In this document: piece by piece, positions 1-36,800 of the stretch
Numbering within the stretch: position 1 is the stretch's first letter
How the letters are laid out: every line of letters starts with the position of its first letter
From: Siphonodentalium dalli
Lineage: Eukaryota > Mollusca > Scaphopoda > Gadilida > Siphonodentaliidae
DNA: 64,000 nucleotides
Direction: 5' to 3'
Assembly (NCBI GenBank): GCA_032622095.1
Contig: CP136069.1
Coordinates: 19,419,326 to 19,483,325 of the forward strand
Position numbers and translations under genes: made by a program
Notes under the pieces: generated by a model
The model's input: only the letters and a program-made list of their open reading frames with translations
What the model was told of the DNA's origin: nothing
Databases searched by the model: none

Positions 1-1
1 A

Positions 2-550
2 AGAGCCGAAAACATTCCTCAGTACATCCAGGGGCTTGAAAAAGAGACCAAACGATGCCACCAACTGGCCCGGGAGTCGTTAAAGACAGCAACTGCGAAA
101 ATGAAACGGGACTATGATGTCACTATGCTAAAGCATAGTTACAAAGTAGGCGATCCCGTTTATTTGTTAGATACGGCAACCAAAAAGGGCCGAAACCGGA
201 AACTATCTCCTTTTTGGAAGGGGCCGGGAGTAGTGGGCGAAGTGTATACCCCTTACTTGTTCAAGGTCCTTTTCCGGAACTCAATAGTGGTGGCTAATCA
301 TGATCGGCTCAAAAAGTGCCATGACAAAACACATCCACCGTGGCTGGCCAAATGCCTGAACCTTTTTCTCACAACGGGGGAACTCTCTATGGTAAAGTCA
401 AACGGGATCTATTGCCTGTGCCGCAAAGGTCGACAGGGCCAATTCATGATCCAATGCGATTACTGCAAAGAGTGGTACCATGGGGGATGTGTAAACATTA
501 CGCCCGAAGAAGGGGAATCAATGGACGAATACCGGTGCCCACAATGCTAG
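2..550 (+). CDS. Ty3/gypsy-like integrase C-terminus with appended PHD finger (5' partial)
   Basis: The reading frame is open from base 2, so the 5' part of pol lies outside the window; the first ATG (101) is internal. The translated start (a helix with ARESLKTA, then KRDYDV) and the following KVGDPVYLLD, WKGPGVV and NHDRLKK motifs are the usual small-barrel C-terminal domain of Ty3/gypsy integrases, which binds DNA during insertion of the cDNA. About 407-547 encodes a C4HC3 PHD finger: YCLC, CDYC, HGGC and CPQC supply the eight zinc ligands. A Tyr before the first Cys, a Met in FMIQC and the Trp in EWYHG sit where H3K4me3-reading PHD fingers such as those of PHF8/KDM7 carry their aromatic cage. 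The stop is TAG at 548. The PHD occupies the place where chromoviruses carry a chromodomain, which suggests chromatin-guided integration (inference). The second ORF starts 23 bases later in another frame. Confidence 0.88.
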   Translation, partial: RAENIPQYIQGLEKETKRCHQLARESLKTATAKMKRDYDVTMLKHSYKVGDPVYLLDTATKKGRNRKLSPFWKGPGVVGEVYTPYLFKVLFRNSIVVANHDRLKKCHDKTHPPWLAKCLNLFLTTGELSMVKSNGIYCLCRKGRQGQFMIQCDYCKEWYHGGCVNITPEEGESMDEYRCPQC

Positions 551-556
551 AAGAGG

Positions 557-570
557 TTTTTATTTTTCAG
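557..570 (+). promoter_or_regulatory. Candidate 3' splice acceptor just before the TatD ORF
   Basis: A pyrimidine-rich run ending in TTTTTCAG (AG at 569-570) lies two bases before the ATG of the next ORF and directly after the integrase-PHD stop codon. The position matches a subgenomic acceptor, like that used for env in retroviruses. No donor can be seen because the 5' part of the element is outside the window, so splicing is an inference. Confidence 0.45.
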
Positions 571-572
571 AT

Positions 573-3167
573 ATGGCAGATTCAGACGCAATACTGTTGG
601 AATCCGACGATGAGCCGACAACCGGCCGGTTGGACATGGCGATGGATGTGGCACAGGACCTGCCTCCAGTTGACAACCGATTGGAGTGGGCAGTAAGCAC
701 GGGTAGGTTTCCAGATAATCCTACGATATCTCAAAGTGACCCTGAGCATGACAAAACCCCCTACCCCGTTTCAGGAGCCAGCGTGTCATCAATAACTGAT
801 GCAGTGTTGGCATCAACGCTGGAAAACAAATGCCCAGGGGGGTCGGTTTTGATGCGGTCTCAGGCCCCCAATGAGAACGCCACAATGGTTGGGCTCACCG
901 ACTGGTGTTCTTCCTGGGGGGGAGGTGATTTATTGGAATTATTCACCCCAGAATCTGATCTACAAGACATGCAAGTTGACCACCCAAATTCCAATCCACA
1001 CAGCTATAAAAATACCCCAGACCCCAAGCCTGATGGGGATGACATAACATATTCACCACAGGCCAGGGAAATAGATTCAGTTGAGGCTGTTTTGCAAGAT
1101 TTGGACAGACACATTGACCATCTGTCCCAAACTAAACCAACTGTTTCTGTTTCAGGGCAACACACACCCAAATCTACGGCATACTCAATGAGTCATTGTC
1201 CCATCACGTCCTGCCACCAACTGGCGAAAGGGCATGTGCGCAGTCACCTTCAGGGCAAACATCTTCCTCCCCACTGGTGGCAGCCGGATCGAGGACAAGG
1301 TCCGATCCCTAAAGTTTTCAGGGACCTGATTCGACAAGACCTTTTGAGATGTGCCACAAGTCTTTGCCCAGCACAGGGCACCGAGGGCAGGTCCGAACAC
1401 CAGCTGTTGCAGGACCTGTTGGCCAAATTAAATGAAACACCGGACCGGGCGGCGATACCGGAGTCTTTCCAACTGGGCACAGAGATGAGCAAAACGCTCT
1501 CTTTGTTTGCGGAAGATCTCGGGATCGAGGTCCGCGTAGGAGGGCACCAAATTGCACCTACAATAAATTCCATCGCAGGTTTAGCTCACTGGAAAGTTTT
1601 AGTGGCAATCCTAAACAAATTGTCCGCAACTGAGCGGGCCAGGATCGAGGATTCGGTTACCTCCTTGTGGCTGATACAGATGTATAAAGACCGTATGTTC
1701 AGAGATCAGCTTAGTAGGAAAGCAGTCGTAGAGGCTCGCGGGAAGGTTGTGAAAGGGATGGCCCCCAATGAGGCTCCCGACCCGATTATTGCGGCGGTAA
1801 TAATTCATAACGCTTTCATGTCGGAAGGGGAACGTGGTATCGAGGCCACAAAGAGCGCTCGGGCCACTATTCGACCTGTCAAGAGACAACGAGAGTCTGC
1901 AAAGAGCCATCGACCATCTGACCGCCCTGACAAGAGACGTCATCGCTCCGACAGCCGGAGGGAAAGGACGGCTAAGCAGTCGCGGTCGGACCGACCATCT
2001 GGAGAGCCGAAACAACAGCAGAAGCTGGCGGCCGCAGTCTGTCCACCTAACCCAGGCCGCAAACCATCGGCATCACAGAGTAGGCCATATAGTTCGGACG
2101 GACGAGGGCGACCCACAACAACTGTGGCCCCTAAACCTAGCCACGGCAAGGAACGCAACTTTTCAGCATCGCAAGGTAGACCAGAGCAGTCAAGGGAGCG
2201 AGGGCGACCAACAACTGGGGCACCTCAATCCCCAAGACACAGATACACCGGAAGGGATCATTCGAGCCGGGGAGAGCATACGACAACCGTGGCTCCTCAG
2301 TCTTATCCCATGCCGGTGATACATGATGGAATAGACAGCCATTTCCATCTGAATCGGATAAACAGTACCTTCAAGATCAAGGCCACACATCCATTGCAAG
2401 CTCTGGACCAGACCCGTCGCCGGGTCAAAGTGTCCCCTGTCGTCAATGTCATCGGAGGTGTGGCCGTTTATTGCGACCCGGAGGAATTCCCAGATCCGAG
2501 ATCTCTTCGGCATGATGGTTCTTGGAAGGTGGCCATTGGATGGCACCCCAAGAAAGCGGCACAGTGGAGTAGTAACCCGGCAGCCAGGGCTCGATTCACC
2601 AACTTGATCGGGCACCCGGAAGTCGCAGCCGTGGGAGAATTCGGCCTTGACCGGTCAAAACCCATGTCGAGGGACGAGCTGGTCAAGCAGGACGACTGTT
2701 TTGAAGAGCTCCTTAGGGCCACAACGGTTACCTCTAAGCCGCTCATCCTTCATGTTCGAGGGCCGGGTGCAGATCCATACAGTTTGGACGTGAGTTATAA
2801 CGCTCTAGCGAAAGTCATTGACCACACCACAAAGGGTCAGACTATCCACCTCCATTGTTTCACGGGCACAAAGTCCCTGGTGGAATCATGGTCAAGTGCC
2901 AGACCAAACACATATTTTGGTATTACGGGAGCCTGTGCACTGTTCGACAACCGACAGTGCACAGCTGTCAGAGCAATCCGCCCCGACCGCCTACTTTTGG
3001 AGTCGGACGCGCCCCATTTTGGCACCCCTCCAAGTCGACCTCACACGACACCAGCTGTCATCGGAGAAGTCGCCACGGTCCTGGCGAGCATTTTGGAAAC
3101 CACTCCAGAAGTGGTGCTGAGGAGGACAGTCCAAAATGCGCGGGATTGCTACGGCATCCGGAACTAG
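573..3167 (+). CDS. Retrotransposon-encoded TatD-like metallohydrolase with long N-terminal extension
   Basis: This is an 864-residue ORF in a different frame from the integrase. Residues about 584-862 form a TatD-family TIM-barrel: HFH at 590-592, GEFGLD with Glu689, HVRG with His727, HCFTG with His761 and ESDAPH with Asp812. Thus every metal ligand expected of a TatD nuclease is present, and the HCFTG/SDAPHF wording resembles animal TATDN2. TatD proteins are metal-dependent DNases or RNases; the activity here is inferred. The N-terminal 580 residues are not recognised. They are acidic at the start, contain a possible zinc finger (Cys209, Cys214, His225, His230), a helical stretch at 240-420, then a basic Arg/Ser-rich low-complexity linker from about 428 to 570. 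A polypurine tract follows 80 bases after the stop, so the ORF sits between pol and the 3' LTR, where env would be. There is no evident signal peptide or membrane segment, which argues against an envelope protein. The frame is intact, so the copy is probably young. Confidence 0.85.
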   Translation: MADSDAILLESDDEPTTGRLDMAMDVAQDLPPVDNRLEWAVSTGRFPDNPTISQSDPEHDKTPYPVSGASVSSITDAVLASTLENKCPGGSVLMRSQAPNENATMVGLTDWCSSWGGGDLLELFTPESDLQDMQVDHPNSNPHSYKNTPDPKPDGDDITYSPQAREIDSVEAVLQDLDRHIDHLSQTKPTVSVSGQHTPKSTAYSMSHCPITSCHQLAKGHVRSHLQGKHLPPHWWQPDRGQGPIPKVFRDLIRQDLLRCATSLCPAQGTEGRSEHQLLQDLLAKLNETPDRAAIPESFQLGTEMSKTLSLFAEDLGIEVRVGGHQIAPTINSIAGLAHWKVLVAILNKLSATERARIEDSVTSLWLIQMYKDRMFRDQLSRKAVVEARGKVVKGMAPNEAPDPIIAAVIIHNAFMSEGERGIEATKSARATIRPVKRQRESAKSHRPSDRPDKRRHRSDSRRERTAKQSRSDRPSGEPKQQQKLAAAVCPPNPGRKPSASQSRPYSSDGRGRPTTTVAPKPSHGKERNFSASQGRPEQSRERGRPTTGAPQSPRHRYTGRDHSSRGEHTTTVAPQSYPMPVIHDGIDSHFHLNRINSTFKIKATHPLQALDQTRRRVKVSPVVNVIGGVAVYCDPEEFPDPRSLRHDGSWKVAIGWHPKKAAQWSSNPAARARFTNLIGHPEVAAVGEFGLDRSKPMSRDELVKQDDCFEELLRATTVTSKPLILHVRGPGADPYSLDVSYNALAKVIDHTTKGQTIHLHCFTGTKSLVESWSSARPNTYFGITGACALFDNRQCTAVRAIRPDRLLLESDAPHFGTPPSRPHTTPAVIGEVATVLASILETTPEVVLRRTVQNARDCYGIRN

Positions 3168-3249
3168 CCGAGTGCTAGCCGGTCAGCCATGTACATATAT
3201 TCAATTTATCATTGGTTGTAAATCCATCCCCTCAGGAAGTTCTTCAAAA

Positions 3250-3262
3250 TTAAAAGAGGGGA
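3250..3262 (+). other. Polypurine tract (plus-strand primer)
   Basis: The purine run AAAAGAGGGGA lies directly before a TG-starting sequence and 80-90 bases after the TatD ORF stop. LTR elements use such a tract to prime plus-strand DNA synthesis at the edge of the 3' LTR. Its place marks the end of the internal region of the element. Confidence 0.6.
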
Positions 3263-3265
3263 TGG

Positions 3266-3486
3266 TGTTGTGTAAATAGTCATGTGCTTGTTAAGAGTGC
3301 CCAAGGGAGGTCACTCGTGACGCCAGTTCCGACTGGGAAACGCAAACCCGGAACCAGGAGCCAGGTCTAGGAAGCGCGGGAACTGACGTCACGGCAGACG
3401 ATTTCTAAATACAGACCACAGCGGCAGCTTGTTATTACTCTGAGCAAAAGTGATCAACTAGAAGTTAATAATGATCTGGATTCACA
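3266..3486 (+). repeat. Probable 3' LTR of the Ty3/gypsy-like element
   Basis: The segment starts with TGTTGTG after the polypurine tract and ends with ATTCACA, so it has TG...CA ends and a length near 220 bp, short but acceptable for this group. The right edge is a guess from the terminal CA. The 5' LTR and left target-site copy lie outside the window, so neither LTR identity nor a duplication can be checked. Confidence 0.45.
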
Positions 3487-5088
3487 GTTAGGTGAGTCTA
3501 GTTTACTTAACCATTGTGTAGACATTGTCTATAAGGTATAAAACACCCCTTTATACTTTATATATACTTTATAGAATCGAAAACGGCTGCACCGATCGAG
3601 ACCAAACTTCCCATCTAAGAGTAAAAACTCACGGGAATGGTCGTCGCGGCGTTTTTGGAGAAGCTCCGAGCACCCGTTCTCCACACCCAGTCACAAAAAT
3701 GACCGTCCTTGGCACTGTGGGGTTAATCGCGTTGATAGTTAAAGAGCGTTCGTATCCACAGTGGCGTTGATAAAGAGCGTATGCGTGTAGTGTGATTCTT
3801 ACGTCTGGGTCCAGACGTGAGCGTGACTGTATCCAGACATGAGCGTGTTGTGTGATTCTTACGTACTTAGGGCTTCATAGGAACGGGGGAGATTTTCATC
3901 GGGTCAGTTTTTCCGCCCGAGGTGATCTTCACCTTGAAACGGGTACCCACAAATGATATATATGTGTGTGTCCTTTATAGACTCGAACCGATTGAGCTCA
4001 AACTTGCTACCTAGGGGTACTTTTGTGCGGGAAGTGTCATGGATGGGTTAAATTGTCACCCCGACCTGACCTTGACCTTGAAAACGATCAATTCAAGGTC
4101 AAATCGGGTAAAACTGGCGGATTTCGAAGAAATTTTACACCTAGGTGCAGCATACGTGTCTCGGAAGCTGTTGCAATTGCCTTTTCGAACAAAGCCATGA
4201 GACGAACCACGCCAGTGGCGGGCTAACCTGCTAGTATAATATATAAGACAAGGCTAGACAATGTTCGGTTTCCAATTCCCTAAATTCGTTGCATTTCTCA
4301 CTCACCGAACCGATCAACTTTTGTATACTTTGAAGTGAGAAAATTGCTTCAAATCAAATCATTAACATGCACTCCACAGTTGGTGATTATCGGAATACAA
4401 TAGGGGAACACTCCGACGTTCGTACTCAGATTTCACCAATTTTCGTGCCTTGCTTGCCTGTACCAAGAAAATGACCAATTTGATTCTAGTATTTGTCGTT
4501 ATATATATTTATTACCCCATTTGTTATTCCTTTTCATAAAAATAAAATAAAACAAGCCGAAAATGATATGTTTAAAATGTCTTAAGCATGATATTGGGCT
4601 TATTGGCGATAAGTTGTTATTAGAGTACGTTATACTTGTGATAGTTACGCACACGGTATTAGCAAATGTGACTCTTTCACATTGGTCGATATGCACAATA
4701 TTTTTTTTTCAGACCGTCTTTTCGTAAACAAAGCCACGTGAATATCGACCAATCAGAAAGAGGGCATTATGTTGCCACGATTAATGCCAATGGTGAATCG
4801 TCCCATGTTTATTCTTAGATTAGAAAGATTTCTAACACTTGAACATATAAAACAGGTTTATATCGGCATTCTACATCACTTTACATGGTAAGGAGGGTTA
4901 AATATCACTTTTGGAAGTAGCACTAGCAATATACGCGACAATAGGCCTATACCGACCCGTTTATCCGACCAAAATCGGTGCAGTGAGTCAGAAAATCAAC
5001 GTTGACGGCGTTCGGCGCTATTCCGTACCGAATTAGTGGCCCTCCCCTGTGGTATGTAATTACTATGTATATGAGGTATATATATATA
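3487..5088. other. Intergenic stretch, no gene; diverged duplicated repeats
   Basis: No coding signal is convincing. Two diverged copies of one repeat can be aligned by eye, near 3555-3620 (CTTTATAGAATCGAAA... GACCAAACTTCCC) and 3970-4020 (CTTTATAGACTCGAACC... CTCAAACTTGCTACC). Short direct repeats of GTGTGATTCTTACGT occur at about 3790 and 3850. The rest is AT-rich single-copy-looking sequence. Confidence 0.5.
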
Positions 5089-5734
5089 GGTGACACTCCA
5101 CAGTTTCGAATTATCAGTAGGGGTAAATTTCTTAGAATAGAGTACCAGTGTTTTCTGTCACCATGGGTGTGGTATGTTTATTGAGAGAAGGTTAGTTATG
5201 AATTTGTGGATTTTTAGAGGATGTCTTTGAGTTTTGAAAAATATTGTTTCAGGTGACCTTGACCCCACCAGTATGAAGTAGTAGCGATTTCTGCGAAACA
5301 GTGGCTCCAGACACCAGCGTGACATTTTAGCACCTAAAATTTGTCATCTGCATGAAAAATATTTTTAAAAAACTTACAGTGGTGAGAAGTTTGAAATTTT
5401 TTGATATTTTTGTGAGGAAACAGTGTTCTTCCAGACAACATAGGCGGCTATACCATTGATCTTCTGGTTTTTGTGTCCCACGAGCCTGAAAATCGCTTAT
5501 TTTGGTCATTTTTGCATCAAAATTTCATTTTTCAGGCACACAATCAAGGGGCATAACTCTTGCTACCCCCATTAAAATGACAATTCTGTACCAAAATCTT
5601 TAAGCCTAGTATGTGCTCAACCCAGGTATATATACATTGTATATGTGTTGTGGGATCACATTTCTGTTATTTTTCATTGAATTGATGCCCCCTTATTTTT
5701 GCACCAATCCCTGCAGAAACTGTGGAGTGTCACC
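5089..5734. mobile_element. TIR element A1, complete 646-bp copy
   Basis: The unit starts with GGTGACACTCCACAGTTTC and ends with the exact reverse complement. It has no long ORF. It is nearly identical over 6589-7108 and 9246-9374 to the split copy A2, and more distantly similar to the B copies. Confidence 0.85.
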
Positions 5735-6588
5735 TTCAAGACCAGCAAATAGCACCATTTTCATCTGTCAACTTGACAAATATTGTTACTGAAAATCATT
5801 TTTTAGCAAACCTGTTCAGTTAGAAGGAACATTTTATGGTAGATACACCATTCTTCTATGCATATTCCAATACAGGTTGTCTTTAATCATATAAATTGGT
5901 GGGGATATGGAGTCTTGGAGCAGTGGGGGGGGGGGGGGGGGGGGGGGGTGGTGGTGGTTCATGTATATGGTTATTGGTGATTTTTCAGATGATGGGTACT
6001 TTTTCATGACATCATATGCTCCTTGAATCTTAGCTGAAAAGGCTGATATTGTGACATTACACAGTATACAACAAGATTAGATATTCAGTCTTTCTTATTC
6101 ACAAGTGTGAAATATAATAATACAGGTTTCCTTGGTCATATTTCACTTGACAACATATTGTTCATGTGATGTCATAACCTTGTAAAGCTTTCCCTTAATG
6201 CTAAATAAGACTTGGAATTTTTTAACCCATAGTTTTGGGAGAGTATTAAAGATAGTTGTTGTATGAAATATTATGTTTTATTTTGATATCTGAGGAAAAT
6301 ATGCATCTCATAATATATTTATACAACATTTTAGCATTTCAGACCTTTTTCAAGCTATAGATGATGGTTGAATATATCCATTTTTTCACTACGTCAAGCA
6401 TAACGTCATTGGGTTCTGAAAGACCCAAAAGGGGTGAAATCATGGGGGTGCATGTAAATCCCCACCCAATCTTGCTGCCTGTGATTGCAATAACGCATGG
6501 GGTGTAATATATCATTTTAAGCGGTATAATGCAGAGAATATGGAGGTGTGGTCCCTATTAAAGATTAATAAAATTGCATTTCCCTTAA
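5735..6588. repeat. Cargo segment S1 between A1 and A2
   Basis: This segment is non-coding, contains a G homopolymer (about 5929-5948) and ends in CCCTTAA before A2. It is highly similar to 7756-8590, which lies between two B elements. Its presence in both composites is what makes the arrangement look like a carried segment rather than chance neighbours. Confidence 0.75.
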
Positions 6589-7108
6589 GGTGACACTCCA
6601 CAGTTTCGAATTATCAGTAGGGGTAAATTTCTTAGAATAGAGTACCAGTGTTTTCTGTCACCATGGGTGTGGTATGTTTATTGAGAGAAGGTTAGTTATG
6701 AATTTGTGGATTTTTAGAGGATGTCTTTGAGTTTTGAAAAATATTGTTTCAGGTGACCTTGACCCCACCAGTATGAAGTAGTAGCGATTTCTGCGAAACA
6801 GTGGCTCCAGACACCAGCGTGACATTTTAGCACCTAAAATTTGTCATCTGCATGAAAAATATTTTTTAAAAACTTACAGTGGTGAGAAGTTTGAAATTTT
6901 TTGATATTTTTGTGAGGAAACAGTGTTCTTCCAGACAACATAGGCGGCTATACCATAGATCTTCTGGTTTTTGTGTCCCACGAGCCTGAAAATCGCTTAT
7001 TTTGGTCATTTTTGCATCAAAATTTCATTTTTCAGGCACACAATCAAGGGGCATAACTCTTGCTACCCCCATTAAAATGACAATTCTGTACCAAAATCTT
7101 TAAGCCTA

Positions 7109-9245
7109 GGTGACACTCCACAGTTTCGAATGATCAGTAGGGGTGATTTTATAGATATAAAGTGCTAGTGGTTTCTGGCACCATTAATGTGGTATGTATA
7201 TTAAGACAAGGTGGGATATCAATTTGTGTAATTTTAGAAGGTGTTCTCGACTGATGAAAAAATTAAGTGCAAGTGACCTTGACCCCACCCATAGACAGCA
7301 GTAGCGTTTTCTGCGAAACAGTGGCTCTAGATACTGGGTCAATTTTTTAGCACCCAAAATTTGTCATCTGCATTAAAAATTGATTTTCTGGAAAATTTAA
7401 CGGCGAAAGTTTGAAATTTTTTCACATTGATGTTGGAAGCCAGAGGCCTCTAAACCAACATAGGTGACCATGCTTGAAAAAATCTGGTATTCGTGCCTCT
7501 TGGGTATGAAAATGCAATATTTTGGTCATTTTTTGAATAAAAATCACATTTTCGATCAAAAGATCAAGGGCCATAACTCTTGATAGCCCATATATTATGG
7601 AAATTATGTATCAAATTCTGAATGCCTATTCTGTACTAATTTCAGGCATATATATATTGTCTATGTGGTTTGGGATCATAATCCAGATAAATTTCAATGA
7701 ATCTATGGGCCCCCTATTTCTGGGCCCATACCTGTTGAAACTGTGGAGTGTCACCTTAAAGACCAGCAAATAGCACCATTATCATCTGTCAACTTGACAT
7801 ATATTTACATTGAAAATCATTTTTAGCAAATCTGCTCAGTTAGAAAGAACATTTTATGTTAAATACACCATTCTTCTATGGATATTCCAATACAGGTGAC
7901 CTTTAGACATATAAATTGGTGGGGATATGGAGTCTTGGAGCAGTGGGGGGGGGGGGGGGTGGTTCATGTGTATTGTTATTGATGATTTTTTAGATGATGG
8001 GTACTTCTTCATGACATCATGCTCCTTGAATCTTAGCTGAAAAGGCTGACATTGACATTACACAGTATACTAAAAGATTAGATATTCAGTCTTTCTTATT
8101 CACAAGTGTGAAATATAATAATTCAGGTTTCCCTGGACATATTTCACTTGACAACATATTGTTCATGTGATGTCATAACCGTGTATAGCTTTCCCTTAAT
8201 GCTAAATAAGACTTGGAATTGTTTAACCCATGGTTTTGGGAGAGTATTAAAGATAGTAGTTGCATGAAATATTATGTTATATTTTGATATCTGAGGAAAA
8301 TATGCATCTCATAATATATTTTATACAACATTTTAGCATTTCAGACCTTTTTCAAGCTATAAATGATGGTTGAATATATACATTTTGTCACTACGTCAAG
8401 CATAACGTCACTGGGTTCTGAAAGACCCAAAAGAGGTGAAATCATGGGGGTGCATGTAAATCCCCACCCAATCTTGCTGCCTGTGATTGCAATAACGCAT
8501 GGGGTGTAATATATCATTTTAAGCGGTATAATGCAGAGAATATGGAGGTGTGGTCCCTATTAAAGATTAGTGAAATTGCATTCCCCTTAAGGTGACACTC
8601 CACAGTTTCGAATGATCAGTAGGGGTGATTTTATAGATATAAAGTGCTAGTGGTTTCTGGCACCATTAATGTGGTATGTATATTAAGACAAGGTGGGATA
8701 TCAATTTGTGTAATTTTAGAAGGTGTTCTCGACTGATGAAAAAATTAAGTGCAAGTGACCTTGACCCCACCCATAGACAGCAGTAGCGTTTTCTGCGAAA
8801 CAGTGGCTCTAGATACTGGGTCAATTTTTTAGCACCCAAAATTTGTCATCTGCATTAAAAATTGATTTTCTGGAAAATTTAACGGCGAAAGTTTGAAATT
8901 TTTTCACATTGATGTTGGAAGCCAGAGGCCTCTAAACCAACATAGGTGACCATGCTTGAAAAAATCTGGTATTCGTGCCTCTTGGGTATGAAAATGCAAT
9001 ATTTTGGTCATTTTTTGAATAAAAATCACATTTTCGATCAAAAGATCAAGGGCCATAACTCTTGATAGCCCATATATTATGGAAATTATGTATCAAATTC
9101 TGAATGCCTATTCTGTACTAATTTCAGGCATATATATATTGTCTATGTCACTATGTGGTTTGGGATCATAATCCAGATAAATTTCAATGAATCTATGGGC
9201 CCCCTATTTCTGGGCCCATACCTGTTGAAACTGTGGAGTGTCACC
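7109..9245. mobile_element. Nested composite element B1-S2-B2 inside A2
   Basis: B1 (7109-7755) and B2 (8591-9245) are near-identical direct copies with the same TIRs as A but a diverged interior. Between them S2 (7756-8590) matches S1. The whole block interrupts A2: AAGCCTA is followed by the block and then CTAGTATG, whereas intact A1 reads AAGCCTAGTATG. This gives a 3-bp target duplication, CTA (7106-7108 and 9246-9248). A 3-bp duplication would suit a Harbinger-like element, but this is weak evidence. B2 has a small extra duplication (CACTATGT) near 9148. Confidence 0.8.
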
Positions 9246-9374
9246 CTAGTATGTGCTCAACCCAGGTATATATACATTGTATATGTGTTGTGGGATCACA
9301 TTTCTGTTATTTTTCATTGAATTGATGCCCCCTTATTTTTGCACCAATCCCTGCAGAAACTGTGGAGTGTCACC

Positions 9375-9817
9375 TATATTTCAATATGTTTTTTCTACAA
9401 GTTCCCCGGGCCCAGTTCAACACTTTTCTTTACATTATATCAAAGACTTTTATTTTGAAGTTGAACATGAGTCTGAATACTGTCTCACTGTGAATAACGC
9501 GCTATCAAAGCTCCGTCAATTTGAGATATTTATAGCAGAAATAAACAGATAAATCTGTGATCAACCTTTGCAATCTTGCAGGGAAAATTGCTGCATGGAG
9601 GCCGCCATTTTTATTACAATACTACATGATATTTTTTTTTATAAAGAAATGTGTAAAATATATCACGAGATATAAATAATCTAAATAAAACCCTTAAATA
9701 AAATAAAATTCAAATGTTTTAGTATTACATAGACTGTGGCTAATCAAACAAAGAGGAGTTTTTATACAGTTTTAACTTCGAGATAATTATCAATTACTTT
9801 TGCATATTGTCGTAAAG
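9375..9817. other. Upstream region of EIF3G
   Basis: AT-rich sequence between the composite element and the start codon of EIF3G. No TATA box is evident at a sensible distance. The open frame ending at 9552 begins inside the transposon tail and has no recognisable protein features. Confidence 0.5.
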
Positions 9818-21800: not shown

Positions 21801-24800
21801 CTAGCCCGCTATGCGGGGGTAGCATCACTAAATTCACCCTCTGGGGACCTCATTCTGAAAATGACAGACACCCTATTTCAAGGCTTGGTTGATTTGCTCA
21901 AAAATATTAACCTTCTCCACCAATCCTGTTGACAAAATGTGACCCGCCATATCAAATCCAGTCGTAAGTCGGGATTTTTTTACCCTGTGCCGATGCATTC
22001 TCTTATATATGCGAGTCGCCTCACATATATAAGAGAATGCATTGGCCTAACAATTTTTTTACAATTTTAATAGTTTTTTCTTGTATTCTTTAACAATTTT
22101 ATAATTTAACCCATACAGAGCCCCAGACAAACATGAGCAGACAACACTCTTCTATATGCTTCTATATATGTGTGGGGCTCCCTGCAGGGTAATGGATGTT
22201 TTTTATTTTATGTCAGAAACATTTATTTAAAAAAAATGATAAAAAATTGTTAGGCCAATGCATTCTCTTATATATGCGAGGCGACCTATGGTCGACTCGC
22301 ATATATAAGAGAATGCATTGGCACAGGGTAAAAAAATCCCGACTTACGACTGGATTTGATATGGCGGGTCACAAATGTGATAACTAAATATTTTTTACCC
22401 GATCACTCTTATAATCACATGCAGGTTAATCATGACACATTCTTCACCTGTATAGATTTTGGTATTGATTTTTTGGTTTTGAAAATATTAACCCTACCTT
22501 TAACCATGAAATGAACACCTGCTATCCAAAGCAATACTTTATCTGATCTCATATTTATACCAATCCAAGTAAATGATGGACCCCCCCCCCCCAATTTATC
22601 TTTCCCATCATCTCAACATTTACATGTATGTGTGAAGGTGTATATTAAGTTCTAGATTGCTGATTCTGAGTTATGGTTTAAGGTATGGGTTAAACTTCTG
22701 CAATTTGTTATCGGCATGTTGTCTTTATTATGGTTGATCAATGGCCACCAGTGACCATCTTGGATTTGACATTTGAATCCATCTTAATACTTAAGTACCA
22801 GTATAAGCTACCAGGCCAAGCAAACTGATCAACAATTAACTTACACTGACATCTATTTTGTTTTTCCAGCACTCTTACCTCAAACGCAGGAAGAATATGA
22901 CAGAAATACTGGAATTAAAAAGATTACAGAATACAAGCAAAATGAAGACAATAAGTTGGTGAAGACTGTCAAACATTATAAAATTGAAAAGAAGTTGGTC
23001 CCAAAAGCAATTGCAAGGAGAAAGGTATATATTATTATATGTCATTTAATTAAAACCCTTTCAGTGCCAAGTTTGATTTTTGTATCAACCCATATTTCCT
23101 TAAAGTCATTAGCTTCACTCCCGGTGGGCATATATTTGATGTCAGACAGAACTGTGCCCGATATACCACAAGAAAGGTCATAAAAAACTAGAAAGAAAAC
23201 CCCAATGTGGCATATTATTAGTGCGGTACTCGCCCTGTATTAAATTGTTGAAAACTGCGATCAGAGTAAGAAATCTTCTCAGATACTAACACATTTTCGG
23301 AGCGAATCAGCGCGCGGAGTCTCATGGAATTATATTCGGAGGAAATCGGAACCACCCGAATAACGACGATCGGCTGGCACGCACGACTGGGAGAACAGCC
23401 AAAACAAAGGCCGGCATGTCGATAACGAAAGTAGATTCAACAAAAAGAGAAAAAAAATAAAAAATAATAGGGGGCCTATCATAGTTTTTGCATTCAAGTT
23501 TTCTAAGTAAAATGTCGACAATTATTTGGCAACTAACAAAGTTTTCACACTCTGTATATATATTTAATTTTATATATATATGGAATTTTTGCAAATTTAG
23601 GAGAGAATGAGTACGTATTCACAGTGTGCAAAAGACGATTGGCACACCTCCGAAATTATCCAGGTTCACCAATAATAAACAAATCTGGGAATTCTGCCTT
23701 CTAATCTAACGTCAACATATTTGGCCGAATACAAGGTGAAGTTATCTGCATGCGAATTATTGACTTCTGTAAATGTAAATTATAAGCAATATTTCAATAA
23801 TATTTGACATCACAATAGACCAATCGTGCTGAGCTAGATCGATTGGTCTTCCTGACACTGTTGTAAGAGATTTCTTGAATATTGAAATTTTGTTTGCTTG
23901 AAGATTTGTTCAAATTTATGATGAATATACCAGCAAAAAATTATACATTGTCTTTCGTTAGTTTCAAAATTGTCTTTCATTAGTTTCAAAATGAATAAGA
24001 ATAATTTTTTTACAAAAAAATGGTTGTAACTTGAAAGAACAATTTAGAGTAGGCCTACTCCCTTTATCCAAGATTCATGCTGGCTGTGAAAGACCGATGG
24101 GATTATTTTAGCCCGATCAGTATATTTTAGCCCGATCGGGCTATTATTGATTGATCGGTGGTTCACCCAGACCTGTAGGATATGCGCACTATAGGATATA
24201 GATAAGGCGTTTTATGTATGGGAGGCCTATTTCACTTGAAAGAACAATTTATAGTAGGCCTACTCCCTTTATCCAAGATTCAGGCTGGCTGTGAAAGACC
24301 GATCGGTCTATTTTAGCCTGATCGGTCTATTTTAGCCCGATCGGGTTATTATTGATTGATCGGTGGTTCACCCAGACCTGTAGGGTATGCGCGCTATATA
24401 GTATATAGATAAGGCGTTTCATGTATGGGAGGCCTATTTCACTTGAAAGAACAATTTATAGTAGGCCTACTCCCTTTATCCAAGATTCAGGCTGGCTGTG
24501 AAAGACCGATCGGTCTATTTTAGCCCGATCGGGCTATTATTGATTGATCGGTGGTTCACCCAGATCTGTAGGGTATGCGCGCTATAGTATATAGATAAGG
24601 CGTTTCATGTATGGGAGGCCTATTTCACTTGAAAGAACAATTTAGAGTAGGCCTACTCCCTTTATCCAAGATTCATGCTGGCTGTGAAAGACCGATGGGA
24701 TTATTCTAGCCCGATCAGTATATTTTAGCCCGATCGGGCTATTATTGATTGATCGGTGGTTCACCCAGACCTGTAGGATATGCGCACTATAGGATATAGA

Positions 24801-27800
24801 TAAGGCGTTTTATGTATGGGAGGCCTATTTCACTTGAAAGAACAATTTATAGTAGGCCTACTCCCTTTATCCAAGATTCAGGCTGGCTGTGAAAGACCGA
24901 TCGGTCTATTTTAGCCCGATCGGTCTATTTTAGCCCGATCGGGTTATTATTGATTGATCGGTGGTTCACCCAGACCTGTAGGGTATGCGCGCTATATAGT
25001 ATATAGATAAGGCGTTTCATGTATGGGAGGCCTATTTCACTTGAAAGAACAATTTATAGTAGGCCTACTCCCTTTATCCAAGATTCAGGCTGGCTGTGAA
25101 AGACCGATCGGTCTATTTTAGCCCGATCGGTCTATTTTAGCCCGATCGGGCTATTATTGATTGATCGGTGGTTCACCCAGACCTGTAGGGTATGCGCGCT
25201 ATAGTATATAGATAAGGCGTTTCATGTATGGGAGGCCTATTTCACTTGAAAGAACAATTTAGAGTAGGCCTACTCCCTTTATCCAAGATTCAAGCTGGCT
25301 GTGAAAGAACGATCGGTCTATTTTAGCCTGATCGGTCTACTTTAGCCCGATCGGGCTGTTATTGATTGATCGGTGGTTCACCCAGACCTGTAGGATATAC
25401 GCGCTATAGCATATAGATACGGCATTTCATGTATGGGATACCCATTTCACATTTATTATTCATTTACGATCAAGCGCAAATATTTCACAAAATAACATCT
25501 ATCATTTGCGCTTCAGTGTAAATCATTTGCGCAAATAAAAATTAATATGCATTGATATCACCCCCCTGAATTAATTTTAAATGGCACAGACCCACCATAT
25601 GAGGGAAGCACCCCCCCAGTAACCCCAATATCTCTTTTATGACCATGGAAATGGTAGAGATATGTGCAGGATATTTCTCTTTTATAAAATATTCTAGATC
25701 TCTGGGATGGAGACACAAATTCTTGGGGACAGGGATGCTGATAATATGAAAATTGGGGTTTTCCCCAATTTCAACTCAATAAGTACACCATATGAGGGAA
25801 GCGAGTCCCCAGTAACACCGAATTCCATATTTATGGCCATGGAAATGGTATATATCTGTGTAGGAGATGTCCCTTTAATAAAATATACTAGAGCTCTGGG
25901 AGTGAGGCAACAATTCGCACTAGAGCTCTGGGAGTGAGGCACCAAATAGTATGGGACACCAGGGACAGAGATGCTGATATATGCATATGGAAATATTTTT
26001 TCTTCAATGTTTCAGTATTATATGGGGCTACTACTATGGGTCCATGATAATATACTATGAGATGGGCTCTATCATTCACAATCAGAGGGAAGTAAGGGAG
26101 TGTTAGGTATTTGCGCTTAAGCGCAAATATATTGATAGACATATACTTGCGCTTAAGCGCAAATGATTCATTTTCACATTTTATATTAACTAATTGCATT
26201 TAAGCGTAAATCAGTTACGCTTAATGTAATCATTTACGCTTAAGCACAATTGACTTATGCGTTATCATAATACATTGGAATTATATTAAGAGCAATAATT
26301 TCATCGGCTGTCTTACCTTATATGTATATTTGTATAATCTGATGTATGTTAACTTACTGGCATTAGTAATGTGGTTGCATCCATTTCAGCTTGAGTATGT
26401 GGAGTTCAATGGGGGTGTATATGAATTACGGTTAAGCGCAACTCATTTACGCTTAAGTGGATTTCATTTACACTTAAGCGTAATTGAAATTAATTATGCT
26501 TAAGCAAATACATGTACCTATCTCCAACTGGTTTCCTCAGTCTGAACATCCATCTTAGTATGGGATCTGGGTGGAGTCCTCACCTATGTTTGAGTAATGT
26601 TTTATGGCCTGAGTTAATTTGAGTTTAGAGCAAATCACATGGGAGTCTTTTTTACATTTATTATTTATTTGCATACAAATATTTGCGCTTAAGCATAAAG
26701 CAATTGCGCTTACTTAGTGCAAATACACAACACTTCTTTACTTCCATCCAATTTTAACTGTCAATGATTGAGTCCATCTTATGGTATATTTATTTGGGCC
26801 TATATAAACTCAAAAATTGAAGAAAACATAATTCCATATGGATAGCTATATCACTATCGCTGTCCCAAACAAATACGGTCTGTACTAGAATAGTGAATAG
26901 CAATATGGCACACATGTAGCATTGCACAGGTAATTAAACAGTTTGAAATACACATGTAAGACAACTCTTTCTGCACGAGACTGTACCTGCTGTAGTTCGA
27001 TCATAAAATCGGTCAACGATCTGCAACGATTACAAATTTCTATAAATAGTAACATTTTCAACTGTTACCGTCGTTCATTGCTCGATCATGACCACTTTGA
27101 TTATAATTCTTTCATAACTCGGTCAATGTTCTTCCGTTGGTGATTTCAGGCAATAATTCCTTTTATATCCCTCCCATTCGAATTGACTATACCGCTTGTT
27201 TTTCGTTTTATTAAGCTGATGTTACGCTATTCCAGCAAACGGCCTCCCTCCACGGAAGCTATTTTCTGAGAACGAAAGCCGACTCAATCCCGACCAAGTC
27301 GGAAGTGTTCGGGTGTTTCCGCGACTGCACACGACAACTCGTTTGTGTATTTATTTCGCGTTTACAGTGGAATTATTCGTCCCGATTGAGGGAAAGTAAA
27401 TAGTTAGTTACGTGGCCGTATAATTAGTACAAACTGATATCTGGTTAGGGCATTTCGTGTATGGGGGTTATTTTATTCAGTCTTTCCACAGAATAACGCA
27501 GGGAACTTGTGAGGTTCAATTTACGTTTCACATCACTTTAATCATTTTTCAAATTTATTGATTATAATAATGTGATACATTGATGGAAAGAGCTCTTAAA
27601 TTTGAAAAATGATCAAGGAAATATGGGTTGATACAAAAATCGGACTTGGCACTGAAAGGGTTAAGCCACATGGTGGTTTGTGCTCCAAAATACACCTAAT
27701 AATATATTCACCATGGAATTTTTCCCGGTATTGAAATAAATGCCTAAACTACCTTTTTATGAACATTATTTGTCACAGAAAGGCGCATTGAGGTCATAAA

Positions 27801-30800: not shown

Positions 30801-33800
30801 TTCCGTGTTTACTAATGACTACTTATGTGGCTAAGATTGTGTGAAATGGATATTTATGTGCATAACTTCCGTTGCGTGGCTAGCCACGTAACAGCTTTCA
30901 GATGGACGTTCAAAAATGATCTATTTGGCCTAATCAGCTTATTATGCCCCCGATCTCCGATGGAGATTTGGGGGTATATAGTGGAGCCCTCTGTCCGTCC
31001 GTACGAACGTTTCAACTCATAACTTTGGTTTCGCTAACTCAATTCAGTTGATCTTTGGTATGCTAATAGACCAGCCGGGGGGACAAGATTTCCCCATAAC
31101 TGCGGTTTCGTCCGCCCATTTTTTCCAGAGTTACGCCCCTTTTTGGACTTAGAAAATTCAGTTTTCTGTGGCATACGAACGTTTCAACTCATAACTTTGG
31201 TTTCGCTAATTCAATTCAGTTGATCTTTGGTATGCCAATAGACCAGCCGGGGGACAAGATTTCCCCATAGCCGTGGTTTCGTTAGCCCATTTTTTCCAGA
31301 GTTACGTCCCTTTTTGGACTTAGAAAATTCAGGTTTTCTCCTACTTTTTTTTTGGTTTCCAGATTTTGGATTGTTTATTTGCAAAACCCGTTTTTTTGTG
31401 TATTACCAATATCGCAATACAGGTCAAGGTAAAATTTCGGTTCAATCGGATAATTGTTGTGAGAGTTATGACCCTTTTTCGACTTAAAAAATTCATTTTT
31501 TTTTTTAGAAAATTCAGTTTTCCTTCTATTTTTGTGGCACCAGACCAAATTTGAAGCTAATATAGAACAACATTTGGCATTTTTATAGCGCTTAACCAGA
31601 AAGTTTCTCTGATTGTACAGTCGGGGGCGTTACCTCCGCCCAGCGGTGCACTTGTTTAATTTTGTAGTCACTCAAAATTTGGAAACAAAAAGTCCATCGA
31701 TTTAGACATCCATGACCCGTCAATAGGAGATGTCGGACACTGACTGACATTTATGTGGCTAGCCACCCAATCACCGACCTGTCAGTTTCTCCTATTCCAC
31801 TGTCCCAGTTGCTGTGTGCAAGTTTTTGAGTTTTAATCAGCTTCTTCTGCTATAATTCCAACATGTTATGAATCCATAATCTGGAGTTTTATCACTATCT
31901 ACTACTTGATAGCCACATAAAATTTTATGGCTACTTGAGAAGCCACATAAAAACTAAAGCCACATTACCATTTCTTGCCACATAGGTCGAGCCACATATC
32001 TACCCATTTGTTCGTCTGTCCGTGTGTCTGTGCGTCCGGAAATGGTTTCCGGATGATAACTTTAGTTTCGGTTATTAGATCAAAAGCAAATTTCATAGGT
32101 GAGTTTATCAGACCAAAATATAGGTCAAGTTCGAATATGGGTTTGCTCCGCCCATTTTTGCGAGAGTTATGGCCCTTTTTAGCTCAACTTTACTTTGTAA
32201 AGTTTGAGCTATTGCCATGGCTTTGTCGTCCGTCGTACGTGTGTGTGTGTGTACGTGTGTACGTAAGGCGTCAACAATGCAGGCTACAGGTCGTACCTTT
32301 CGTCGGATCATTATGAAATTTCTCATAGCTGTTGACATCAACATTTAGACCAGAATAATTAATTTTGGGGTCATTCGGAAAAAAAACATGGCCGCCAGTG
32401 GCCATATTGGATTTCAAAATTCAATCCATTAGCACGGGCTACAGGCCGTACTGTTTGTCTGATCTTCATGAAATTTGTCATGGATGTTAATATTGACATG
32501 TAGATGGGAACGAGTAATTTTGGGGTCATTCGGCCCAAAAACATGGCCGTCAGCAGCCATCTTGGATTTTACTCTTTGTATGACTAAATTCTTTAGCACG
32601 GGCTACAGGTCGTACTTTTAGTCTGATCATCATAAATTTTATCAAGAATGTTAATAATGACATGTAGATGGGAACGAGTCATTTTGGGGTCATTCGGCCA
32701 AAAAACATGGCCGCCAGCAGCCATCTTGTATTTTACTCTTTGTATGACTAAATCCTTTAGCACGGGCTGCAGGTCGTACCTTTAGTCTGATCATCATAAA
32801 ATTTGTCATGGCTGTTGAAATTGGAATGTAGATGGGAACGAGTCATTTTGGGGTCATTCGGACAAAAAACATGGCCGCCAGCAGCCATTTTGGATTTCAA
32901 AATTTAATCCATTAGCACGGGCCACAGGTCGTACTGTTCGTCTGATCACCATGAAATTTGTCATGGATGATAATATTGACATGTAGATGGGAACGAGTAA
33001 TTTTGGGGTCATTCGGCCAATAAACATGGCCGCCAGCAGCCATCTTCGATTTTACTCTTTGTATGACTAAATTCTTTAGCACGGGCTGCAGGTCGTACCT
33101 TTAGTCTGATCATCATAAAATTTGTCATGAATATTAACAATGACATGTAGATGGGAACGAGTCATTTTGGGGTCATTCGGCTAAAAAACATGGTCGCCAG
33201 CTGCCATCTTGGATTTTACTCTTTGTATGACTAAATCCTTTAGCACAGGCTACAGGTCGTACCTTTAGTCTGATCATCATAAAATTTGTCATGGTTGTTG
33301 GAATTGGAATGTAGATGGGAACGAGTCATTTTGGGGTCATTCGGACAAAAAACATGGCCGCCAGCGGCCATATTGGGTTTAAAAATTTAATCCATTAGCA
33401 CGGGCCACAGGTTGTACTGTTCTTCTGATCATCATGAAATTTGTCATGGATGATAATATTGACATGTAGATGGGAACGAGTAATTTTGGGGTCATTCGGC
33501 CAAAAAACATGGCCGCCAGCAGCCATCTTGGATTTTACTCTTTGTATGACTAAATTCTTTAGCACGGGCTGCAGGTCGTACCTTTAGTCTGATCATCATA
33601 AAATGGGTCATGGATGTTAACAATGACATGTAGATGGGAACTAGTCATTTTGGGGTCATTCAGCCAAAAAACATGGCCGCCAGCAGCCATCTTGGATTTT
33701 ACTCTTTGTATGACTAAATCCTTTAGCACGGGCTGCAGGTCGTACCTTTAGTCTGATCATCATAAAATTTGTCATGGCTGTTGAAATTGGAATGTAGATG

Positions 33801-36800
33801 GGAACGAGTCATTTTGGGGTCATTCGGACAAAAAACATGGCCGCCAGCGGCCATTTCGGATTTCAAAATTTAATCCATTAGCACGGGCCACAGGTCGTAC
33901 TGTTCGTCTGATCACCATGAAATTTGTCATGGATGATAATATTGACATGTAGATGGGAACGAGTAATTTTGGGGTCATTCGGCCAATAAACATGGCCGCC
34001 AGCAGCCATCTTCGATTTTACTCTTTGTATGACTAAATTCTTTAGCACGGGCTGCAGGTCGTACCTTTAGTCTGATCATCATAAAATTTGTCATGAATAT
34101 TAACAATGACATGTAGATGGGAACGAGTCATTTTGGGGTCATTCGGCTAAAAAACATGGTCGCCAGCTGCCATCTTGGATTTTACTCTTTGTATGACTAA
34201 ATCCTTTAGCACAGGCTACAGGTCGTACCTTTAGTCTGATCATCATAAAATTTGTCATGGTTGTTGGAATTGGAATGTAGATGGGAACGAGTCATTTTGG
34301 GGTCATTCGGACAAAAAACATGGCCGCCAGCGGCCATATTGGGTTTAAAAATTTAATCCATTAGCACGGGCCACAGGTTGTACTGTTCTTCTGATCATCA
34401 TGAAATTTGTCATGGATGATAATATTGACATGTAGATGGGAACGAGTAATTTTGGGGTCATTCGGCCAAAAAACATGGCCGCCAGCAGCCATCTTGGATT
34501 TTACTCTTTGTATGACTAAATTCTTTAGCACGGGCTGCAGGTCGTACCTTTAGTCTGATCATCATAAAATGGGTCATGGATGTTAACAATGACATGTAGA
34601 TGGGAACTAGTCATTTTGGGGTCATTCAGCCAAAAAACATGGCCGCCAGCAGCCATCTTGGATTTTACTCTTTGTATGACTAAATCCTTTAGCACGGGCA
34701 ACAGGTCGTACCTTTAGTCTGATCATCATAAAATTTGTCAGGGTTGTTGAAATTGGAATGTAGATGGGAACGAGTCATTTTGGGGTCATTCGGACAAAAA
34801 ACATGGCCGCCAGCGGCCATATTGGATTAAAAAATTTAATCCATTAGCACGGGCCACAGGTCGTACTGTTCGTCTGATCACCATGAAATTTGTCATGGAT
34901 GATAATATTGACATGTAGATGGGAACGAGTAATTTTGGGGTCATTCGGCCAATAAACATGGCCGCCAGCAGCCATCTTGGATTTTACTCTTTGTATGACT
35001 TAATTCTTTAGCACGGGCTACATGTCATACCTTTAGTCTGATCATCATAAAATTTGTCATTCGGCCAAAAAACATGGCCGCCAGCAGCCATCTTGGATTT
35101 TACTCTTTGTATGACTAAATTCTTTAGCATGGGCTACAGGTCGTACCTTTAGTCTGATCGTCATAAAATTTGTCATGGATGTTAACGATGACATGTAGAT
35201 GGGAACGACTCATTTTGGGGTCATTCGGCCGAAAACAAGGCCGCCAGCAGCCATCTTGGATTTTACTTTTCTCTTCATGTCTATAAACATGTATTAGATA
35301 TTCAACTTTCCACATTCCTAATGGCTCCATTGACTGTAATACATTAAATTATTCCCTTTCCAAGTTGAGCTACAGTGTCATTGACACTTTCATTTGACTT
35401 AGAAAACCCCTGAAAGTTGGTTTCCGGATGATAACTTTAGTAGAGTTAATCGGATTCAAACCAAATTTGGTATATTACTTTCTCCCAGCAAAACACAGGT
35501 CAAGTTCGAACTTGGGTTCTGCCCGGCCATTTTTTGCAGAGTTATGCCCCTTTTTCGACATAGAAAATTTAGTTTTTCTTCTGTTTTTTTGTTTCCGGAT
35601 GATAACTTGATTTTGGATTGTTTTTATGTAAAACCCGTTTTTTTGTGGATTACTTATATCAAAATACAGCTCAAGTTCGAATTTTGGTTTAATCCGATAA
35701 CTTTTGCGAGAGTTATGGCCCTTTTTTGTCGGCCGACTCGACATATAAAACCCCAAAAGTTGGTGTCCGGATGATAACTTTAGTAGAGTTAATCAGATTT
35801 ATACCAAATTTGGTATGTGTCTTTCTCCCAGCAAAACACAGGTCAAATTCGAATTCGGGTTCTGCCCGCCAATTTTCACCAGAGTTATGTCCCTTTTTTA
35901 CTTAGAATTTTTGCCAATTTGAGGTTTCCGGATGATAACTTCAGTAAATGTGTACTGAATGAAATTAAATTTGGAATATGTAGGTTTACTAGCACAAAAG
36001 ACAGATCAAATTCGATTTCGTGTTCCGCCATGCCAATTTCTATACGCAAACAACGGTCGTATCAAGCCGACGCTTAGAGGCGGACATGAGGTCTACCGAC
36101 CTTTTATTCGACTTGTTTTACTTAGAAAATTTCTCACTTTTTCGGTTTCCGGATGATATCTCAAATTGGATCCTTTAATTGCAAATACCGTTTTTATGTG
36201 GATCAGTCATATCACGATACAGGTCAAGTTCGAATTTGAGTTTGAACCGATAATTTTTCTCAGAGTTATGGGCTTTTCGACTTAGAAAATTCAATTTTTC
36301 TTGTAATTTTCTTAATTTTATGCCAAATTGAGGTTATATTTTGACTTTAAGAGTTTTTTTAAGATTTGGTTATTTGTATGCATGTCAGTAATGAGACAAT
36401 GCACAAGTGTCTTATCCATATAGTATACTTCTACAAAGCCTCCGCTCCAAATGAAGCCACCGGTTCGGGAGACACTGTGGCCGAGCGGCCTTTTATTTCA
36501 CTCAGGAATTGTATTCGTGTTTTCATTTTTTTTGCATGGTAACTTAATCAATATTCAAGAGATATCTTGATAATTGGCACGTGGTTCTCATTTGAGAAGA
36601 CACAGGCCAAGTTCTAGTTTATTCCATTGGAAATACCATTTGTGTTGTTCTTCAATAGAATCTCTTGATAATTGGTGTTTGTAAGAACCGAAACCTAATA
36701 ATGAAACGTACTGTATGTGAAGTTCGTTAATATACCAGAGACGCTCGCCTGATGACTCCAATTGCTGGCCATTATTTTCTGATTCCCAACATTCTAAGTA

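Follow-up and report, generated by a model that had tools for sequence, protein, structure and literature searches.

Here we describe, in a 64,000-nt stretch of the genome of the scaphopod mollusc Siphonodentalium dalli (the window; C9:19419326-19483325 in an assembly of 9 contigs and 2.23 Gb), the right-hand end of a complete Ty3/Gypsy-type long terminal repeat (LTR) retrotransposon whose third open reading frame (ORF3) codes for a TatD-type nuclease. The element, which occupies window positions 1-3560 and was completed by fetching the left neighbour and comparing the LTRs, is a young copy of an old lineage. It reads LTR, gag, pol (protease, reverse transcriptase (RT), RNase H, integrase and a PHD finger), ORF3 and LTR, so that ORF3 is enclosed by the LTRs. 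A PHD finger and a TatD domain are both present in all 10 of the lineages of this element that we read (family E being counted with family C), down to an RT identity of 55%.

The boundaries of the window element are given by its LTRs and flanks. The 5' LTR (C9:19411285-19411581, 297 nt) lies 7.7 kb to the left of the window and is 98.7% identical to the 295-nt 3' LTR, and a 4-bp target-site duplication (TSD), TATA, stands on both flanks. Pfam finds protease, RT, RNase H and integrase on pol in Ty3/Gypsy order, followed at the end of the protein by a PHD finger (PF00628, E 6.6e-11), with the pol frame running on from the left neighbour into the window. On the 1143-residue gag it finds a PNMA-type capsid (E 2e-6) and, below cutoff, a zf-CCHC (E 0.0034) and a helix-hairpin-helix (E 2.2e-5). 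By eye, a candidate primer-binding site (TGGCGT) lies about 1 nt past the 5' LTR in families A (that of the window element), C and D, and a purine tract precedes the 3' LTR. Matching TSDs were seen in 5 of the 7 copies read (the window copy, C6a with CTGT, and, by eye, C, J and K) and not in copies D and I; the 5' LTR of copy B was not found. A first-pass annotation of the window had already read an integrase C-terminus that continues into a PHD finger, a separate 864-residue ORF with a complete TatD motif set and a polypurine tract behind it, all of which we recover (Table 1). The TG...CA segment that it ended at 3486 gives way to a longer LTR with other termini, and its assignment of the ORF to a retrotransposon is borne out by the 5' LTR, gag and RT found on the left.

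Two details of the copies stand on their own. Where the 5' and 3' LTRs of the window element differ, they do so within a single short segment: an inverted repeat that is perfect in the 5' LTR (CTGTGAATCCA ... TGGATTCACAG) is imperfect in the 3' LTR, a pattern that copying of one arm from its hairpin partner might leave. The 3' LTR of copy C3a shares the form seen in the window 3' LTR. The helix-hairpin-helix heads gag (L009:2138-2290, and the matching parts of B, C, D, J and K, the last two by eye), and to our knowledge a DNA-binding motif at the gag N-terminus is unusual.

ORF3 recurs throughout the genome together with pol. A genome search returned at least 79 matches to ORF3, among them four full copies at 99-100% identity (one being that of the window) and many relatives at lower identity, and an RT search returned at least 104 matches with identities from 100% to 54%. 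These counts are lower bounds, the searches having scored 52 of 1029 candidates for ORF3, 103 of 4803 for RT and 138 of 612 for TatD; the search for Tpt1, discussed below, was complete (96 of 96). Families B, C and D have the same gag-pol-ORF3 order as A, and so, for pol-ORF3, has E (the fetched piece did not span gag), which by alignment is a subfamily of C at about 94% identity. Six deeper lineages, F-K, were each represented by one copy picked down the RT list. All six have a PHD-tailed integrase (tblastn with the pol of A and inspection by eye, rather than Pfam) and a TatD domain, the ORF3 frame of F being broken and the TatD of J being read in a separate piece. Genome-wide, 67 of 80 RT matches have a TatD match in the same orientation at 0-10 kb downstream (6/6 at 99-100% RT identity, 40/51 at 71-75% and 21/23 at 61-64%), compared with 0/80 upstream and 1/80 on the other strand; the 13 RT matches lacking a downstream TatD may be truncated copies. 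This cross-match took in 139 of 139 TatD matches and 80 of 104 RT matches (2 of the 80 being pieces of one place), and the 24 RT matches of 54-59% identity were tested for Tpt1 and not for TatD. Wherever we read the neighbourhood, the TatD ORF follows pol. One copy, C3b (C3:274699000-274713000), lies among tandem repeats spaced about 436 nt apart, and its gag side is gone.

The C-terminal third of ORF3 is a TatD domain (PF01026, E 1e-32, residues 587-861). Its metal ligands (HxH, then E, H, H and D) are all present in 16 of 16 ORF3 copies of families A-E, and the metal-site residues do not vary among the 10 lineages, standing as DSHFH or DTHFH, the Glu of GE, LH.RG, the His of HCF, HSF or HCC, and E[ST]D.P. 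In an AlphaFold model the domain has the TatD barrel fold, with a predicted local distance difference test (pLDDT) score that is mostly 84-98 (whole-model mean 64.8; predicted template modelling score 0.52), the helices of the middle domain are modelled at low to medium confidence, and YcfH, TatD, TATDN1 and TATDN3 are among the top Protein Data Bank (PDB) matches. For the zinc finger-like motif of ORF3 there is no Pfam match. An HxH motif rule separates the TATDN2/TATDN3 class from TATDN1 (in the available part of PMC10085689), and by that rule the ORF3 domain is a class II TatD, with TATDN2 and TATDN3. In trees with long branches and unsure deep joins it groups with proteins P0001-P0008 and apart from the sampled bacterial TatDs; the named one among the eight is from Mercenaria mercenaria (P0006) and we take the rest to be eukaryotic. 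Part of the middle domain is common to P0001, P0003 and P0006. A protein search with full ORF3 gave no match at E <= 0.001, one with profile A1 gave a single match, and a search of viral contigs returned one distant TatD only.

The simplest history is that TatD was acquired once, before the sampled lineages split, and then descended with pol, because an integrase-PHD tree and a TatD tree of the same ten lineages are without conflict. In each, J pairs with K, B with C and D with F, and A-D plus F form a set of their own to which G and H stand nearest. The placing of G and H is open in the pol tree, as is that of A beside B+C and D+F in the TatD tree, which has long branches and unsure deep joins; several TatD nodes have supports of 83-90, and the pol row of D covers 42% of the columns.

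The deeper comparisons show purifying selection on ORF3, as judged from the ratio of nonsynonymous to synonymous divergence (dN/dS); between deep families dS is saturated. Between C1 and E1 this ratio is 0.22 for TatD, 0.27 for the middle domain and 0.82 for the linker, the TatD values between C and subfamily E span 0.22-0.24, and pairs within B give 0.24-0.37 over the whole of ORF3. Thus the first-pass suggestion that the frame is kept by selection stands for the deeper comparisons and for the metal site, with very close pairs being noisy, and its label "TATDN2-like" can be retained for the class alone.

In lineages I, J and K, whose RT is 55-59% identical to that of A, ORF3 has a second enzyme domain, a Tpt1/KptA RNA 2'-phosphotransferase N-terminal to TatD (PF01885, E 2.5e-41, 5.7e-48 and 1.6e-44, respectively). 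The nearest solved relatives are the TRPT1 chains 7yw2 (E 2e-30) and 7yw3 (E 3.6e-29), which we take to be of mammalian origin, and R20, H21, R61 and R126, presumably the catalytic tetrad of Tpt1, are unchanged in all three lineages. Of the 24 RT matches at 54-59% identity, 19 have a Tpt1 match downstream; of the other 80, none has. The copies read are young, since the LTR pairs around I, J and K (223, 510 and 289 nt) are each 100% identical; by eye, J has the TSD ATAA and K has TTAC, and none is clear for I. Depending on where the history is rooted, Tpt1 may be ancestral and later lost or may be a gain of the I/J/K branch. Elsewhere, a cluster of four short Tpt1-like matches (C6:168573749-168830600, 39-44% identical to K) possibly consists of tandem host TRPT1 genes.

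How might ORF3 be expressed? In each lineage the gap from the pol stop to the ATG of ORF3 contains a YAG, mostly behind a pyrimidine-rich tract, and when all sense-strand AG sites were ranked as acceptors, using a matrix with values from general knowledge, this junction site came 1st of 738 in A, 5th of 628 in B, 2nd of 625 in C, 1st of 633 in D and 4th of 611 in E. A donor-like site is present in the LTRs of 6 of the 6 lineages in which LTRs were read (GTRAGT in A, C and D; GTRAG in I, J and K). Together, the LTR donor-like and pre-ORF3 acceptor-like sites suggest that ORF3 is made from a spliced mRNA, in the manner of retroviral env. Spliced messages are described as the typical route of ORF3 expression in LTR retrotransposons (in the available part of PMC5408684). 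As for pol, the coordinates of copy C3a show it briefly overlapping gag in the -1 frame, and a slippery site (TTTAAAC/T) is found at the gag-pol junction in B, C and D; a search of the final 90 nt of gag in A gave no such heptamer.

In light of these domains, what might ORF3 do for the element? The reading we think likeliest, giving it about an even chance, is that ORF3 is an accessory protein that would process nucleic-acid ends in the element's RNA and cDNA. We favour it because TATDN1 and TATDN3 shorten single-stranded 3' ends and cleave DNA at abasic sites (PMC10085689, seen in part), because TATDN2 is a reported RNase acting on R-loop RNA (as cited in the available text of PMC12709183) and because Tpt1 is present. 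ORF3 is predicted to bind nucleic acid and is probably nuclear. Its TatD domain would trim blocked or single-stranded 3' ends, or cut abasic sites, in element cDNA or RNA/DNA intermediates, and Tpt1, where present, would remove 2'-phosphates from element RNA or cap it by ADP-ribosylation. ADP-ribosyl capping of RNA is a Tpt1 activity. The best structure matches of the PHD finger are PHF2, BPTF, DIDO1 and PHF8, which suggests that it probably steers the integrase to H3K4-methylated chromatin. A more ambitious version, which we advance only tentatively, is that throughout an animal Gypsy lineage a spliced third gene ancestrally joined Tpt1 and TatD as the element's RNA/DNA end-repair protein, which would mend or cap the genomic RNA and the cDNA when the host cuts them, with TatD kept throughout and Tpt1 later lost in most branches.

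Several observations weigh against the end-processing reading or against steps that it draws on. Of the ORF3 matches cross-matched to RT (50 of 79), 12 had no RT upstream among the RT matches listed, and of the Tpt1 matches so treated (48 of 76, fragments and weak matches being excluded), 29 had none; some of the latter may be host TRPT1 genes. Tpt1 itself was not found in 7 of the 10 lineages by Pfam and the genome cross-match. The dN/dS of close pairs is near 1 (D1-D2 1.02, E1-E2 0.92, window copy to C3b 0.95) or noisy (0.59-0.99 for TatD in the D pair), as expected after insertion. On the splicing side, a stricter acceptor filter picked up the junction sites of B, C and E and missed those of A and D, the junction sites of F-K were read by eye with those of J and K being weak, and the pattern used for the donors of I, J and K was looser than that for A, C and D. 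The element's own RT has an RNase H domain, so ORF3 is no simple replacement for that activity, an idea that we tried and rejected. Finally, ORF3 changes faster than pol (A-B identity is 52% for TatD and 36% for the middle domain, compared with 74% for RT-RNase H), which fits a host-facing role as well.

That last point bears on the reading that ranks second, for which we see a lesser though real chance, namely that ORF3 is a counter-defence protein that would degrade or modify host small RNAs, their precursors or R-loops, or undo host-nuclease damage to element RNA. The fast divergence, greatest in the middle domain, is what this role would favour, as are the presence of an RNA-modifying enzyme, Tpt1, that also has KptA homologs in gammabaculoviruses (according to the available text of PMC3230848) and the occurrence of TatD family members in a phage-defence system (a QatD model match, below its cutoff). 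The metal-site residues, however, are unchanged in all ten lineages and give no sign of a changing chemistry, and gag also diverges fast (A-B identity of the capsid part is 56%). We regard as improbable that ORF3 is a structural or nucleic-acid-binding protein in which TatD is kept for binding rather than catalysis: DEDD relatives such as Maelstrom, which bind without cutting, set a precedent (PMC5408684, in the part available), but the same invariant metal ligands speak against it. That a host TatD gene merely neighbours an element fragment, as the wide spread of TatD genes might lead one to think (TATDN1 is described as ubiquitous in the available part of PMC10085689), has a negligible probability and is ruled out by the enclosure of ORF3 within LTRs and TSD, by the linkage of TatD to RT and by the lack of conflict between the trees.

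How does the element compare with known systems? It resembles Vesta and Juno, LTR elements of bdelloid rotifers, in having an enzyme as its third ORF; theirs is a DEDDy exonuclease or a GDSL esterase, the former being RNase D-like and not TatD, gained on two or more occasions and absent from early branches, and neither PHD nor Tpt1 is noted in the available part of that account (PMC5408684). Orchid Gypsy elements likewise have an extra enzyme acting on nucleic acid, in their case an ORF for an AlkB RNA demethylase, described as recent and found in plants (PMC9289625, available in part). Like the TATDN2 and TATDN3 proteins, ORF3 has the HxH motif and the remaining metal ligands, and TATDN2 also has a long N-terminal region (from the available parts of PMC10085689 and PMC12709183). 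Unlike those cellular genes, ORF3 is carried by a retrotransposon and has a zinc finger-like motif and a helical domain, so that the likeness is one of class only. The second domain shares the family profile and the R-H-R-R of TRPT1/Tpt1/KptA and differs in being fused to TatD in the ORF3 of an LTR element (I, J and K). Among the literature matches listed, themselves available in part, none reports a retrotransposon with an ORF for TatD or Tpt1. An errantivirus-type env in the third ORF was considered and rejected, ORF3 being a TatD with no env family in Pfam (transmembrane segments were not searched).

The chromoviruses among Ty3/Gypsy elements have a chromatin-reader module, the chromodomain, on the integrase C-terminus. 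The window element also has a chromatin reader at that end, which is a PHD finger and not a chromodomain, and the lack of any chromodomain match on the integrase in Pfam led us to reject a chromovirus.

Table 1. Features of the retrotransposon in the window
Feature	Position	Strand	Basis or remark
pol C-terminal part: integrase C-terminal region, then PHD finger (413-547)	2..550	+	pol start lies left of window; Pfam
Acceptor-like site, T-rich tract and CAG, 2 nt 5' of ORF3 ATG	556..570	+	rank 1/738 among sense-strand AG sites; missed by stricter filter
ORF3, 864 aa, TatD accessory protein (putative)	573..3167	+	ORF list, Pfam, genome recurrence
ORF3 C2H2-like zinc finger motif (C209, C214, H225, H230)	1197..1262	+	suggested by pattern; positions common to families A-D
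ORF3 middle helical domain, no known family	1263..1862	+	conserved in A-E; partly in P0001, P0003, Mercenaria P0006
ORF3 basic low-complexity linker	1863..2312	+	alignment; possible nuclear localisation signal, by eye
ORF3 TatD nuclease domain; metal site H590, H592, E689, H727, H761, D812 (ORF3 numbering)	2331..3155	+	residues by analogy to TATDN1/3
Polypurine tract AAAAGAGGGGATGG, abutting 3' LTR	3252..3265	+	by eye
3' LTR, 295 nt, TGTTGTG...ACTTTA	3266..3560	+	LTR pair comparison
Splice-donor-like GTGAGT in LTR; the 5' LTR copy would be the one used	3492..3497	+	pattern search
Target-site duplication TATA; partner 5' of 5' LTR	3561..3564	+	flank comparison

Beyond the element, the window holds other repeats. 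A 15.3-kb tandem array (window 37979-53278) consists of about 251 copies of a 61-nt unit at 98% match, and two further satellite arrays lie at 32282-35060 (units of about 164 and 483 nt) and 24029-25450 (205 nt). Several repeat copies ending in inverted AGGTGACACTCCACAGTTTC, partly duplicated, occupy 5088-9375 and are likely a small terminal-inverted-repeat element.

The usual view of LTR retrotransposons is that gag and pol suffice for them. A nuclease gene kept down to 55% RT identity, joined in deep branches by Tpt1, points to an unrecognised need in replication or to an arms race with the host. The element offers a direct test case for the action of TatD on reverse-transcription intermediates, at a time when the cellular roles of TatD proteins, such as that of TATDN2 on R-loops, are just emerging. 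It also bears on genome annotation: the genes listed for the giant squid Hox cluster include a "TATDN2" next to other transposon-like ones (in the available part of PMC6962438), and this "TATDN2" may be the ORF3 of such an element. More broadly, multi-copy "TATDN2" genes in invertebrate annotations may be transposon genes.

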